Source: Coralloluteibacterium stylophorae (GTDB taxonomy: Bacteria; Pseudomonadota; Gammaproteobacteria; Xanthomonadales; Xanthomonadaceae). From it: 64,000 nt of DNA. This document shows positions 5,422-10,733 of the stretch, one piece after another. The notes under the pieces were generated by a model. That model saw only the letters and a program-made list of their open reading frames with translations, was not told where the DNA came from and did no database searches. Both the position numbers and the translations under genes were made by a program. The DNA lies in assembly GCF_018122625.2 (NCBI RefSeq), contig NZ_JAGQFT020000001.1, positions 62,001 to 126,000 of the forward strand, read 5' to 3'. Within the stretch, counting starts at the first letter, position 1. Each line of letters opens with the position of its first letter.

Positions 5422-7746
5422 ATGAAGAAGGTCGTCGCGCTCGCAGTTGCGGGCATGGCAGGTGCCGCTTGGTTCGCGCACGGGGGATCCGCCTCTGGTC
5501 CCGAACCCACGGCTGCGGGCCCGGCATCGCAGCCTTCCGGGACGGTGGAGCGGGTGCAGGGACGGAGCACGTCGGCATCGCTCATGCCCGTGGCGCCGTC
5601 GCGCCTGGATGCCGCAGGCACCGGCATCGCGACGGGCCCGGATCGAGGTGATCTGGTGCGATATGCAGGCCCCACCCGCGAGGAAGGCCCCGTCACGCTA
5701 CATCCCGTCGCCGTCAGCGAGGCCCACGCCATCGCAGCGACGGTAGGGGGAATCCTGCACTTCATCACTCCGGATGGTCAGCAACTGGCCATCCGCTACG
5801 ACCGCCGCAGCGAAAGCGCCGACGGCAACTGGAGCTGGATCGGACACGTCGAAAGCATGGATCCGCGCCGCAAGGCCGTCTTCACCTTCGGTCCGACCGC
5901 CGTGTTCGGCTCGATACCACGCCCCGACGGATCGACGCTGAAGCTGACCACGCGAGCGGGTGCGACCTACGTGGCGGTGATCGACAGCGCGCGCTTCGAC
6001 ACCCCTGCCTGGGGCGACGACGCAGTCGAGGCCTCGGGCTTCGCCGCACAGGCCGCAGATGCCCTGGCGCTCCGTACGGCGGAGCAGGCCGTCGCCGCAG
6101 CGACGGTTGCGGCGACGGCCGCCGAGGCCAAGACCCTCGACCTCGTCGCCGGCTACAGCAAATCGCTCGCCGACGGCCTGGGCGGCAGCGCTGCCGGCGC
6201 TACGCGTCTCAGCTTCCTGGTCGAGATGGCCAACCAGGTCCTGGAGAACACCGGCGTCGATGGCCGCATCCGCCTGGTCAAGGCCATCCAGGTGAACTAC
6301 GCCGACGACCATGCCGTCGACAGGTCGTTCGACGACCTGACCAGCGGCACGCATTCCAGCCTGCGGCCGATCCGCGATGCACGCGAGACCTACGGCGGCG
6401 ATCTCGTGAGCCTCGTGGTGAAGTTCACGGCCAACAGCGGGATCTGCGGCCTGGGCAACTGGCGGACCACCAATGGCGAACTGAGTGGCGGTGCGTATTC
6501 CACCGTCGCGGACGGCTGGGTCTGGGACTCGAACGGTTGGGGAACCGGCTGCAGCGACGACACCCTGGCCCATGAGATCGGGCACAACCTGGGCCTCAAC
6601 CACAACGCGGACGAAGGGGGCATCTACCCGTACGCCAATGGCTACGAATCGGTGGCCGGGAACTTCCACGACGTCATGAATTACGGACTGGAAGGCACCG
6701 ATTCGGTGCTCATGTTCACCAACCCGCTGCTGAAGTGCGGCGCGATGAACCTGCCCTGCGGGAACGCGGCCACCGCCGACGCCGCGAGGGCTCTGGCACG
6801 GACGATCCCGATCGCCGCCGCGTTCCGTTCAACGAAAGTTGCCATCGGCGGCCTGCAGACCGTTTCCGGACGGGTCAACGAGCAGAACAAGGACGACCTG
6901 GTCTTCGCAGACAACGACGCGGCCACGCTCCACGCCTGGTTGATGGTGGGAACCGACCGGCGTGCGCGCCTTGCGGGCGAAAGCGTGAACGGGAGCTGGC
7001 GTCTCGTCGGCTCCGGCGACCTGGACGGCGACGGACGCGTCGATCTTCTCTGGCAGTCCGCCAGCGGCGAGCTGTTCGCGGGCAGGACCCGCGGCGGCAT
7101 CGCCGGTATCGGCTACGCCGGTCTCGGCAAGGCCGGAAGCTGGGAAGGATGGCATGTCGGCGGCGTCGGCGATGTCGATGGCGACGGCAAGGACGACATC
7201 CTGTTCGTCAATCCGCTGCGCAAGCGCTACATGACCTGGCTGATGGACGGGACCCGCATCCGCAGGAAGAACGCCAGCGTGGCCTACAACGCGGCCTATA
7301 CCCTGGTCGCGCACGGCGACTTCAATGGCGACGGCAAGCTCGATGTGCTGTGGCAGCGGCCGAACACGACGCTCCGCATCTGGCTCGGCGACGGCAGGAC
7401 GCTCTCCGCGAGGAACGGCGAGCTGGGCGAGAAGCCGGCCAGCGGCTACACCGTCGCCGGAGCGGGCGATGTGACGGGCGACGGCAAGGACGACATCCTC
7501 GTCGTGAACGCGTCGCGCAACCGTGCCGCGTTCTGGACCGTGAGCGGAATGAAGGTCACCAGGCGCAATGCGAGCGTCGCCACGCTGCCGGGTGCCTCCC
7601 TGCTCACCACCGGCGACCTCAGCGGCGACAGGAAGCTCGACCTGGTCTGGAAGACGCCCGCCGGCGACGTCTGGGCCTGGCTGGGCGACGGCAGGGTCCT
7701 GAACGCCAGGACCCGGAAGATCGGGAGCATCCACGACCTGGACTGA
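5422..7746 (+). CDS. secreted metzincin zinc metalloprotease with C-terminal FG-GAP repeats
   Basis: A 774-residue exported protein starting MKKVVALAVAGMAGAAW, a signal peptide. A propeptide-like region runs to about residue 200. The catalytic domain has the zinc motif HEIGHNLGLNH (His384, Glu385, His388, His394) and the Met-turn VMNYG with Met419, which together define a metzincin resembling reprolysin-like M12 enzymes. The C-terminal 220 residues carry five calcium-binding-like FG-GAP/VCBS repeats of the GDxDGDGxxD type, the fifth degenerate (GDLSGDRKLD). Such repeats often fold as a propeller and mediate adhesion. Likely an extracellular protein- or matrix-degrading enzyme, fitting a lytic or predatory lifestyle. 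Confidence 0.9.
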   Translation: MKKVVALAVAGMAGAAWFAHGGSASGPEPTAAGPASQPSGTVERVQGRSTSASLMPVAPSRLDAAGTGIATGPDRGDLVRYAGPTREEGPVTLHPVAVSEAHAIAATVGGILHFITPDGQQLAIRYDRRSESADGNWSWIGHVESMDPRRKAVFTFGPTAVFGSIPRPDGSTLKLTTRAGATYVAVIDSARFDTPAWGDDAVEASGFAAQAADALALRTAEQAVAAATVAATAAEAKTLDLVAGYSKSLADGLGGSAAGATRLSFLVEMANQVLENTGVDGRIRLVKAIQVNYADDHAVDRSFDDLTSGTHSSLRPIRDARETYGGDLVSLVVKFTANSGICGLGNWRTTNGELSGGAYSTVADGWVWDSNGWGTGCSDDTLAHEIGHNLGLNHNADEGGIYPYANGYESVAGNFHDVMNYGLEGTDSVLMFTNPLLKCGAMNLPCGNAATADAARALARTIPIAAAFRSTKVAIGGLQTVSGRVNEQNKDDLVFADNDAATLHAWLMVGTDRRARLAGESVNGSWRLVGSGDLDGDGRVDLLWQSASGELFAGRTRGGIAGIGYAGLGKAGSWEGWHVGGVGDVDGDGKDDILFVNPLRKRYMTWLMDGTRIRRKNASVAYNAAYTLVAHGDFNGDGKLDVLWQRPNTTLRIWLGDGRTLSARNGELGEKPASGYTVAGAGDVTGDGKDDILVVNASRNRAAFWTVSGMKVTRRNASVATLPGASLLTTGDLSGDRKLDLVWKTPAGDVWAWLGDGRVLNARTRKIGSIHDLD

Positions 7747-7780
7747 CTGGCGCCGGGTGTCGTCCGTCGCCGTCGCCCTG

Positions 7781-7794
7781 TTGATCAGGATCAA
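7781..7794. promoter_or_regulatory. FNR/Anr box upstream of universal stress protein genes
   Basis: TTGATCAGGATCAA matches the FNR/Anr consensus TTGATnnnnATCAA at all ten defined positions. Its centre is about 66 bp before the start codon at 7854. A TCCAAT hexamer at 7817-7822 is correctly placed for a -10 element if the box is centred at -41.5, the class II activator position, giving a leader of about 25 nt. This predicts oxygen-limited activation of the downstream usp genes. Confidence 0.85.
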
Positions 7795-7853
7795 TGCCGC
7801 CAGCGCGGGGACCCGGTCCAATGCCTCCACCGCAACCGCGTTGGAGGCTGGAG

Positions 7854-8696
7854 ATGATCAGGGACATCGTCGTTCCGATGACGTCGACCGCGGCGGACAG
7901 CGATGCGCTGGACGTCGCGCTCGATCTCGCCACCCACCACCAGGCCCACCTGACGGTGCTGGAGATGCTCAACCTGCCGCTGCCGACGGTCGGGCCCTGG
8001 GGTTTCGTGTCCGAGATCTCGCTCGGCAACATCTACGAAAAGCTCCGCGAGCAGGGCCGGCGCAACGCCGAGGCGCTGCGCGAACGGCTGCGCACCTCCA
8101 CGGTTTCGCACGAGGTGCGGCTGGTCGAGGCGCCGCTGCAGGGCCCGCTGGGCATGGCCGCGCAGTGCGCGCAGTACGGCGACCTCAGCGTGCTGGCCGG
8201 TGCCCATGGCGACACGGCCGAGGCGGAGACCACGCGCGCCTACTTCGGCGCACTGCTGCTCGAGTCGGGACGCCCGGTGCTGGTGGTGCCGTCGCGCTGC
8301 AAGGTGCCGGTGCCGTCGCGGCGCGCGGTGGTCGGCTGGCGCCCGACGCCGGACGCGACGCGCGCCCTGCACGACGCCCTGCCGCTGCTGCGCACCGCGG
8401 CGCAGGTCGACGTGGTGATGGTCGACCCCATGGACGGCGCCGGTGGCGAGGGCGACGAGCCGGGGGCGGAGATCGCCACCCACCTCGCGCGCCATGGGCT
8501 GAAGGTGGACGTGGTGAGCTACGCCGCCGGGCATCGCGACGCCAGCGCCGTCCTGCTCGACCACGTCCGCAGGGTCCATGCCGACCTGCTGGTGGTCGGC
8601 GGCTACGGTCACTCGAAGCTGCGCGAATGGGCGATGGGCGGGATGACCCGCGAGCTGCTGTTCGGCGCGCACATCCCGGTGCTGTTCTCGCACTGA
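7854..8696 (+). CDS. universal stress protein, tandem UspA domains
   Basis: A 280-residue cytosolic protein with two UspA-fold domains (about 1-145 and 150-280). The second domain carries an ATP-loop-like GGYGHSKLREWAMGG, following the G-2x-G-9x-G pattern but with Gly instead of Ser/Thr at the end; the first domain's loop is degenerate. Start at 7854 is preceded by GGAGG at a good distance. Preceded by a perfect FNR box and followed 45 bp later by a related usp gene, so the two are likely co-transcribed. In Pseudomonas, Anr-controlled usp genes support survival without oxygen; a similar role is inferred here. Confidence 0.9.
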   Translation: MIRDIVVPMTSTAADSDALDVALDLATHHQAHLTVLEMLNLPLPTVGPWGFVSEISLGNIYEKLREQGRRNAEALRERLRTSTVSHEVRLVEAPLQGPLGMAAQCAQYGDLSVLAGAHGDTAEAETTRAYFGALLLESGRPVLVVPSRCKVPVPSRRAVVGWRPTPDATRALHDALPLLRTAAQVDVVMVDPMDGAGGEGDEPGAEIATHLARHGLKVDVVSYAAGHRDASAVLLDHVRRVHADLLVVGGYGHSKLREWAMGGMTRELLFGAHIPVLFSH

Positions 8697-8741
8697 GCCC
8701 GCAGGCCGACGCACGCCGGAGGCGGGGACGGAGGAGTGGCC

Positions 8742-9578
8742 ATGTACAGATCGATCCTGGTGCCGTTGCTGCGGGGCGAGGCCGAGGCCGCGCCCCTGCA
8801 GGCCGCATGCGCGCTTACCGCCCAGCTCGGGGCGGAGCTGCGCGTGCTGGTAGGAATGGATGTCGGCCGGGCCCGGGCCTTCGGCTGGGAGTTCATGCCG
8901 GCCGGACCCGACGAGGCATCCGACCTGGCGGCCCGCGCCGGCGCCGAGGCGCTGGCCGAGGACGTGCGCCGCCTGCTGGAGGGACATCGGCCGCCCTGCA
9001 AGGTCGTGGTCGGCGACGCCCGCTGGGCCTCGCCGGCACGGCAGGCGGTCGAACATGCACAGGTGGCCGACCTCGTGGTCATGGGTCGCCCGCTGCAGCC
9101 GACCGCGGGCGAGAGCGCGGCGTTCGGCATGATCCTGCTGGAGTCCGGCCGACCGGTGCTCGTGATTCCCTCCACCGCAAGGACCGACCGCCGCTATGGG
9201 ACGGTCGTGCTGGCCTGGACGCCGACACGCGAGGCGACGCGTGCGCTGCACGACGCTCTGCCGCTGCTGGCGGTGGCGCGGGCGGTCCACGTGCTCACCC
9301 TCGCGGAGGGCGCGGCCGGCACCGCCCGTTTCGCGGATGTCGAGGCGGCGTCCGTGCTGCCGCTGCTCGCACGGCACGGCGTGGCCGCGCGGCACCTGGT
9401 GGAGCCCCGGGGCGACCGGGAGGCCGGCGAGGCGATCCTCGAGCATGCGCTGCGCATCGGCGCCGACCTGATCGTCGCTGGCGGCCATGGCCGCTCGCGT
9501 CTCGCCGAGCTCGTCTTCGGCGGCGCAACCCGGACGCTGTACCTGCAGGCGCCGATCCCGGTGCTGTTCTCGCATTGA
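8742..9578 (+). CDS. universal stress protein, tandem UspA domains (second copy)
   Basis: A 278-residue paralogue of the preceding gene, again two UspA domains. The C-terminal domain has GGHGRSRLAELVFGG, matching the G-2x-G-9x-G nucleotide loop with a terminal Gly, and both proteins end in IPVLFSH. ATG at 8742 is preferred over the in-frame GTG at 8736 because AGGAG at 8732-8736 is then correctly spaced. It lies 45 bp after the first usp gene with no visible terminator, so the FNR box at 7781 probably controls both. Role: low-oxygen or stationary-phase stress protection, inferred from the family and the operator. Confidence 0.9.
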   Translation: MYRSILVPLLRGEAEAAPLQAACALTAQLGAELRVLVGMDVGRARAFGWEFMPAGPDEASDLAARAGAEALAEDVRRLLEGHRPPCKVVVGDARWASPARQAVEHAQVADLVVMGRPLQPTAGESAAFGMILLESGRPVLVIPSTARTDRRYGTVVLAWTPTREATRALHDALPLLAVARAVHVLTLAEGAAGTARFADVEAASVLPLLARHGVAARHLVEPRGDREAGEAILEHALRIGADLIVAGGHGRSRLAELVFGGATRTLYLQAPIPVLFSH

Positions 9579-9769
9579 CCGGCTCCCCGCGTGGGAGCAT
9601 CGGCGCCGCAGCTTCCGATGGACTGTCCGGCTTTCGATCCTGTGCGCCCGGTGGATCCGCAGCACGATGGGACCCTGACGCTGCGGACGGATCGCGCACG
9701 AAACCACGAGCGCGCGGCTCAGCCCGCACGGATGCTGGGCCGGCCGCCGGGACACCTCGCGCCGGCGGC

Positions 9770-9796
9770 TGTCACGAAGTACATGTCCGGGACGTC
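9770..9796 (+). promoter_or_regulatory. candidate ECF41 sigma-factor promoter (autoregulation)
   Basis: TGTCACG at 9770-9776, a 16-bp spacer, then CGTC at 9793-9796. This matches the promoter described for ECF41 sigma factors (TGTCACA at -35, CGTC at -10) with one mismatch. It lies about 30 bp before the start of an ECF41-type gene, so the sigma factor probably activates its own transcription. A second overlapping CGTC at 9796-9799 is a possible alternative -10. Confidence 0.7.
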
Positions 9797-9827
9797 GTCT
9801 GGGAAGGCGACCGGCGCGGAGGAGGCG

Positions 9828-10733
9828 ATGAAGCAGGTATCAGGCACCGACGAGCGCCGGCCCGGCCAGCTCCAGGCTTTCGAGGCCGTCCGGCCGCGGC
9901 TGCTGGGGCTGGCCTATCGCATCCTGGGCTCGCATGCGGATGCCGAGGATGCGGTGCAGGACACGTTCCTGAAATGGCAGGCGGACGAGCGCGAGGCGGT
10001 CGCCAATCCCGCCGCCTGGCTCACCACCGTCTGCACCCGGCATTGCCTGGACATGTTGCGTGCGGGCGACCGCGCGCGGGTGGACTACGTGGGGCCGTGG
10101 CTGCCGGAGCCGGTGCAGACCGCGGCGGACGCAGGCGAGGATGTCGCCATGGCCGCGTCCCTGACCACCGCCTTCCTGCTCGCGTTGCAGCGCCTGACCC
10201 CGAAGGAGCGGGCGGCCTACCTGCTGTACGAGATCTTCGACATGCCGTATCCGGACGTCGCCCGCACGCTCGGCCTGCAGGAGCCGGCCTGCCGCCAGCT
10301 GGTGGCGCGCGCGCGGGGCCACATCGAGCGCGGGAAGGTGCGCCAGGTGACCCCGCCGGACCGGCAGCGGCGCCTGCTCGACGCCTTCGGCGAGGCCGTC
10401 GCGACCGGCTCCACGTCCCGCCTGGCGCGGCTGCTCGCCGCGGACGTGCGCCTGTCCGCGGACGGCGGCGGCAAGGTCTCGGCCACGCGCAGGATCATGC
10501 GCGGGCCTGCCGAGGTGCTGCGCTTCGTCGAGGCGGGCCTGCACGTGTGGTGGGCGGGGGCGGCGATCGAGGAGGTGGCCCTCAACGGCGGTCGTGGCCT
10601 CCTGGTCCGGGATGGCGGCGGCATCACCGCGGCGGTGTCGTTCGGCTACGACGCCGACGGCCGGCTCGGTGACATCTTCGTCATGCGCAATCCGGACAAG
10701 CTCGCGCGGCTGGACCCGGCCGCGCTGCACTAG
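9828..10733 (+). CDS. ECF41-type RNA polymerase sigma factor (SigJ-like) with SnoaL-like C-terminal domain
   Basis: A 301-residue sigma-70 factor of the extracytoplasmic-function class. Sigma2 covers about 12-85 (LGLAYRILGSHADAEDAVQD), sigma4 about 105-170. It has the ECF41 hallmarks: WLPEP linker at residues 91-95, then a SnoaL_2-like C-terminal extension carrying DGGGK (212-216) and NPDKL (288-292), which in studied members controls activity in place of an anti-sigma factor. GGAGGAGG just before the ATG is a strong ribosome site. Family members usually sit beside a carboxymuconolactone decarboxylase, oxidoreductase or epimerase gene; none is adjacent here. The stop codon overlaps that of the convergent DUF5916 gene. 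Confidence 0.93.
   Translation: MKQVSGTDERRPGQLQAFEAVRPRLLGLAYRILGSHADAEDAVQDTFLKWQADEREAVANPAAWLTTVCTRHCLDMLRAGDRARVDYVGPWLPEPVQTAADAGEDVAMAASLTTAFLLALQRLTPKERAAYLLYEIFDMPYPDVARTLGLQEPACRQLVARARGHIERGKVRQVTPPDRQRRLLDAFGEAVATGSTSRLARLLAADVRLSADGGGKVSATRRIMRGPAEVLRFVEAGLHVWWAGAAIEEVALNGGRGLLVRDGGGITAAVSFGYDADGRLGDIFVMRNPDKLARLDPAALH

Follow-up and report, generated by a model that had tools for sequence, protein, structure and literature searches.

A conserved FNR/Anr box and a predicted class II promoter before a tandem universal stress protein gene pair in Coralloluteibacterium stylophorae

Two adjacent universal stress protein (usp) genes of Coralloluteibacterium stylophorae are very likely, on comparative sequence evidence, under the control of an FNR-type regulator. 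The genes lie in the window analysed here, a contiguous stretch of 64 kb, and are preceded by a perfect FNR/Anr box. We consider it highly probable that a class II FNR-activated promoter drives the pair as a two-gene operon. This view draws on the box and its spacing, its conservation before usp orthologues, the presence of a matching regulator, and the identity of the other genes in the genome that carry the same box.

The usp pair and its predicted promoter

The first gene, usp1 (7854..8696, + strand), encodes a tandem-domain universal stress protein of 280 aa. The second, usp2 (8742..9578, + strand), encodes a paralogous tandem-domain protein of 278 aa, and the two products share 40% identity. 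Both exceed the Pfam gathering score of 24 for PF00582, with 49.9 and 66.9 bits, respectively. Because homologues align from residue 1 at the ATG at 7854, this codon was taken as the start of usp1. An alternative ATG at 7794, which opens a 300-aa reading frame overlapping the FNR box, was rejected on the same alignment. On the 5' side, a gene for a reprolysin-like metallopeptidase with FG-GAP repeats (5449-7746) ends 34 bp before the box. On the 3' side of usp2, the same strand encodes an ECF-type sigma factor (9741-10733) that combines Sigma70_r2 and r4_2 with a long region at the C-terminus.

The FNR/Anr box, TTGATCAGGATCAA, occupies 7781..7794 on the + strand, within the 107 bp that separate the stop codon of the metalloprotease gene (7746) from the usp1 ATG. 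It is palindromic, shows no mismatch to TTGATNNNNATCAA, and is the sole match in the 64-kb window when up to one mismatch is allowed. At that tolerance a shuffled window yields a mean of 0.15 matches; for perfect boxes, the Markov estimate is 0.002 per 64 kb. The predicted -10 hexamer, TCCAAT (7817..7822, + strand), lies 22 nt 3' of the box, which is class II spacing. Its position places the approximate transcription start at 7829..7829 (+ strand), and a start near that nucleotide would give the box, whose midpoint is 7787.5, a position of about -41.5. The hexamer agrees with TATAAT at four of six positions, a weakness that counts against the class II FNR reading. A sigma-70 scan of 7600-9800 found no other promoter-like sites, and a scan of the same interval found no terminator-like sites. 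The usp2 gene also lacks an FNR box of its own. An earlier note was correct in stating that the pair has no further promoter signal, that the box fits the consensus at every defined base, and that it is spaced as a class II site from the TCCAAT at 7817. The interval marked in that note (7781-8696) takes in the box and usp1 and leaves usp2 outside.

Conservation of the box in relatives

Homologues of usp1 were identified in 74 of the 247 genomes from the family. A match to TTGAYNNNNRTCAA starts 60-95 bp 5' of the start codon in 51 of 71 non-redundant upstream regions, compared with a mean of 0.005 and a maximum of 1 in 200 Markov resamplings. This footprint is the strongest evidence for FNR control, which is graded very likely. 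The strict box is missing from the expected place in 20 of the 71 relatives, which counts against the class II FNR reading. When the upstream regions are aligned on the box, AAT is almost confined to offsets of 24-26 nt, where 22 of the 51 have it, and this pattern points to a -10 element at the class II position.

A second, GTDB-named set, which partly overlaps the first, carries the box in 47 of 79 cases. Box-bearing genera in this set include Lysobacter, Luteimonas, Pseudoxanthomonas, Arenimonas and Dokdonella, together with some Roseomonas-type Alphaproteobacteria. The set was obtained with an alignment query; a single-protein query of genome contigs gave no relatives. Over the 247 family genomes, perfect boxes number 1116 against 15 for the reversed control (sums of printed counts). 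In a class-wide search of 369 genomes, most distant Usp homologues from other families were without the box: the strict pattern was present in 4 of 25 and in none at -95..-60. This scarcity also counts against the class II FNR reading. The association therefore belongs to the usp1 orthologue group and not to Usp genes generally.

In several relatives a second box stands further 5', at a usual distance of about 60 or 70-90 bp. Such tandem boxes stand upstream in L018, L026, L028, L031, L036, L038 and L055, where the second is about 60 to 90 bp 5' of the class II site. The layout is reminiscent of E. coli promoters that bear a pair of FNR sites.

A cysteine-bearing FNR-type regulator

The Crp-type HTH family has three matches in the genome: an FNR-type protein, a Clp-type protein and one match below threshold. 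The FNR-type protein (G000:C1:438761-439519; L090:6762-7523) contains the motif C29-T-S-C32-x7-C40, a central C128 and the helix IETVSRSF. The three N-terminal cysteines and C128 are conserved in relatives. Its recognition helix, ETVSR, fits E-x-x-S-R, the reader of TTGAT, in which the roles of Glu, Ser and Arg have been described (PMC7713065).

The best model for this protein is FnrL (162 bits), with further matches to FixK and Fnr (121 bits). It falls under the curated NCBIfam cut-offs for FnrL (162 vs 300 bits) and Fnr (121 vs 228 bits), and its cluster chemistry was for that reason deduced from the cysteines. The protein aligns over its full length with a solved FNR-type regulator and over most of its length with FixK2. 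These comparisons describe an FNR-like, probably Fe-S regulator that is closest to the FnrN/FnrL lineage and is not filed as FnrL itself.

Other boxes and a minimal regulon

The GC-rich genome (4.0 Mb) was searched by pattern and by family. Six perfect boxes were found, against 0.13 expected when the window is modelled as a first-order Markov chain (for at least six boxes, Poisson P is about 6e-9), and the reversed pattern gave 0. Four of the five boxes other than that of usp precede classic low-oxygen genes. They stand upstream of cydA-cydB-cydX-hemN (L086), of the cco cluster (ccoNOQP; L088), of an AdhP-type alcohol dehydrogenase gene (adhP; L089) and, at 6841, directly 5' of the gene for an ODP-type di-iron protein of the metallo-beta-lactamase fold (L087:5934-6800), a probable further regulon member. 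The fifth (L003) falls in a helicase-like gene, within coding-like sequence, and probably matches by chance.

All four of these promoters show, 22 nt past the box, a hexamer whose second base is A and whose sixth is T (GAACAT, GAGACT, CACACT and GAGCAT), in a register identical to that of TCCAAT at usp. Judged by sequence, this common register is the expected look of a class II FNR promoter set. The relaxed pattern TTGAYNNNNRTCAA adds five sites in the same genome, where its reversed control gives two and the expectation is one. No clear low-oxygen genes occur in the surroundings of the five, and the regulon was accordingly limited to perfect boxes. Computational support for class II control by FNR comes from the cognate regulator, from the boxes before cyd-hemN, cco, adhP and the ODP gene, and from the conserved position and -10 spacing.

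A mechanism can be proposed on this basis. When oxygen drops, the sole Cys-ligated FNR-family protein of the genome would retain its [4Fe-4S] cluster and dimerise. The dimer would bind TTGATCAGGATCAA, centred about 41.5 bp 5' of the start, and contact RNA polymerase, presumably as an activator and not a repressor, at a promoter with a weak -10 (TCCAAT) and no -35. In this way usp1 would be switched on, and usp2 by read-through. The cbb3 and bd high-affinity oxidases, hemN (oxygen-independent haem synthesis), the alcohol dehydrogenase and the ODP-type di-iron protein would be co-activated, and the Usp proteins would probably aid survival of energy starvation in low oxygen.

Alternative explanations

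In a GC-rich genome the box could be a chance palindrome, with the usp genes transcribed by other means. The L003 box illustrates that a perfect match alone is no proof of function. However, the excess of perfect boxes over the 0.13 expected per genome, the near-zero reversed-pattern controls and above all the positional conservation (51/71 vs 0.005), which refutes this account statistically, make it extremely improbable. The box might instead be real and be read by a Clp-type or Cys-less Dnr/FixK-like protein, so that the signal would not be oxygen itself. Some relatives (L092/G115 and L097/G124) do keep the box though the FNR match found there is a Cys-less regulator. In the present genome, however, the Crp-type HTH matches are limited to the Cys-type FNR protein, Clp and the sub-threshold match. 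The Clp helix (CSREMAGRVLKQL) is CRP-like and does not fit E-x-x-S-R, and CRP-type sites have the different form TGTGA-N6-TCACA. A reader other than the FNR-type protein is very improbable on these grounds.

The extent of the transcription unit deserves separate attention. Several relatives (L030, L037 and L028) have an FNR box before the second usp gene, which usp2 here lacks, and the promoter could serve usp1 only, with usp2 controlled separately and the pair not forming one regulon unit. This arrangement is unlikely in the window, where the two genes lie on the same strand, separated by a 45-bp gap with no terminator or promoter match. Co-transcription of usp2 with usp1 is probable from this layout, and the two-gene operon is retained as the preferred reading.

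Possible regulator exchange and the usp island in relatives

The relatives differ in the regulator that they encode. An FnrN-like protein with C-x2-C-x7-C is found in the source genome and a few relatives, and an Anr-like protein with C-x2-C-x5-C in most. In others, for example G115, G216 and G124, the best FNR match is a Cys-less FNR-like protein with the helix LETVTRAL. With each genome classed by its best FNR match, 4/5 genomes with the FnrN-like, 31/41 with the Anr-like and 11/13 with the Cys-less type carry the box, where class boundaries are E-value cuts and the sequence check covers aligned examples only. G051 is the one genome that bears usp but gave no FNR match, and it lacks the box.

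In the Cys-less regulators at L092:8487-9227, L091:11113-11832 and L097:8962-9681, W replaces the central cysteine and LETVTRAL or LETVVRAL replaces ETVSR; their genomes retain perfect FNR boxes. G115 and G216 have a single FNR match each, with a score consistent with the Cys-less protein. It is possible, and we propose it tentatively, that the usp box was kept while its regulator was exchanged, so that one usp response would be coupled to different low-oxygen sensing mechanisms within the same family.

The Cys-less regulator is encoded in a usp-rich island, often adjoining a PAS histidine kinase and a response regulator. In L091, L092, L093, L094, L095, L097, L101 and L102, the usp orthologue region covers some 20-35 kb and holds many FNR-like boxes. 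It includes extra usp genes and genes for a 257-aa short-chain dehydrogenase and GNAT-like, Hsp20-like and BON-like proteins, as well as a P-type ATPase, adhP or terminal oxidases, the PAS histidine kinase/response regulator and the Cys-less FNR-like regulator; most of these names were assigned by eye from sequence. From its gene content, the region in relatives looks like a low-oxygen survival island; the window retains the usp pair alone.

Relation to known systems and significance

Control of usp genes by FNR/Anr is already known in other bacteria. The kind of control is therefore ordinary, which reduces the biological surprise. In Sphingopyxis granuli TFA, uspA (SGRAN_3353) has an FNR box at -41.5 of a mapped start and belongs to the FnrN/FixK regulon (PMC7713065). 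The two cases share a usp gene, the consensus TTGAY-N4-RTCAA and a class II position (here predicted), along with FnrN/FixK-type regulators and the presence of ccoN and hemN in the same regulon. S. granuli differs in being an Alphaproteobacterium with a mapped start, mutant data and a monocistronic uspA, whereas the present genome has a tandem-domain usp pair.

In Pseudomonas aeruginosa, uspK, uspL, uspM, uspN and uspO are Anr-dependent, four of them with tandem Usp domains, and uspK and uspN have anaerobic survival phenotypes (reviewed in PMC8509486). Low-oxygen usp genes with two Usp domains are thus common to both organisms (here as a prediction). The P. aeruginosa genes are separate and respond to Anr and the stringent response, whereas here the pair is adjacent and the regulator is of the C-x2-C-x7-C type. 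The core FNR/Anr/FnrN targets (cbb3 oxidase, cydAB, hemN and adh) likewise bear the other perfect boxes of this genome. Unlike that core regulon, perfect boxes are few here (five before genes), and the genes behind them include no nitrate respiration operon.

Usp proteins increase in micro-oxic Burkholderia cenocepacia (PMC3759415), and FNR family members have been noted in Stenotrophomonas maltophilia (PMC2643945). No published report of FNR control of usp in Xanthomonadaceae/Lysobacteraceae was found in a literature search that took in few subscription papers or regulon databases. The description of such control as little known is consistent with this search for the family itself, and does not extend to bacteria elsewhere, where it is well established. 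The new part, at the level of sequence, is the conservation of the box across Lysobacteraceae and across different FNR-type regulator lineages.

These findings do not alter current views on the action of FNR or of Usp proteins. For the genome, they provide an FNR motif validated by its footprint, together with a minimal regulon composed of the usp pair, cyd-hemN, cco, adhP and the ODP gene. The usp promoter prediction is precise and easy to test. For the family, usually regarded as aerobes, they place Usp genes in a conserved low-oxygen regulon of Lysobacteraceae.
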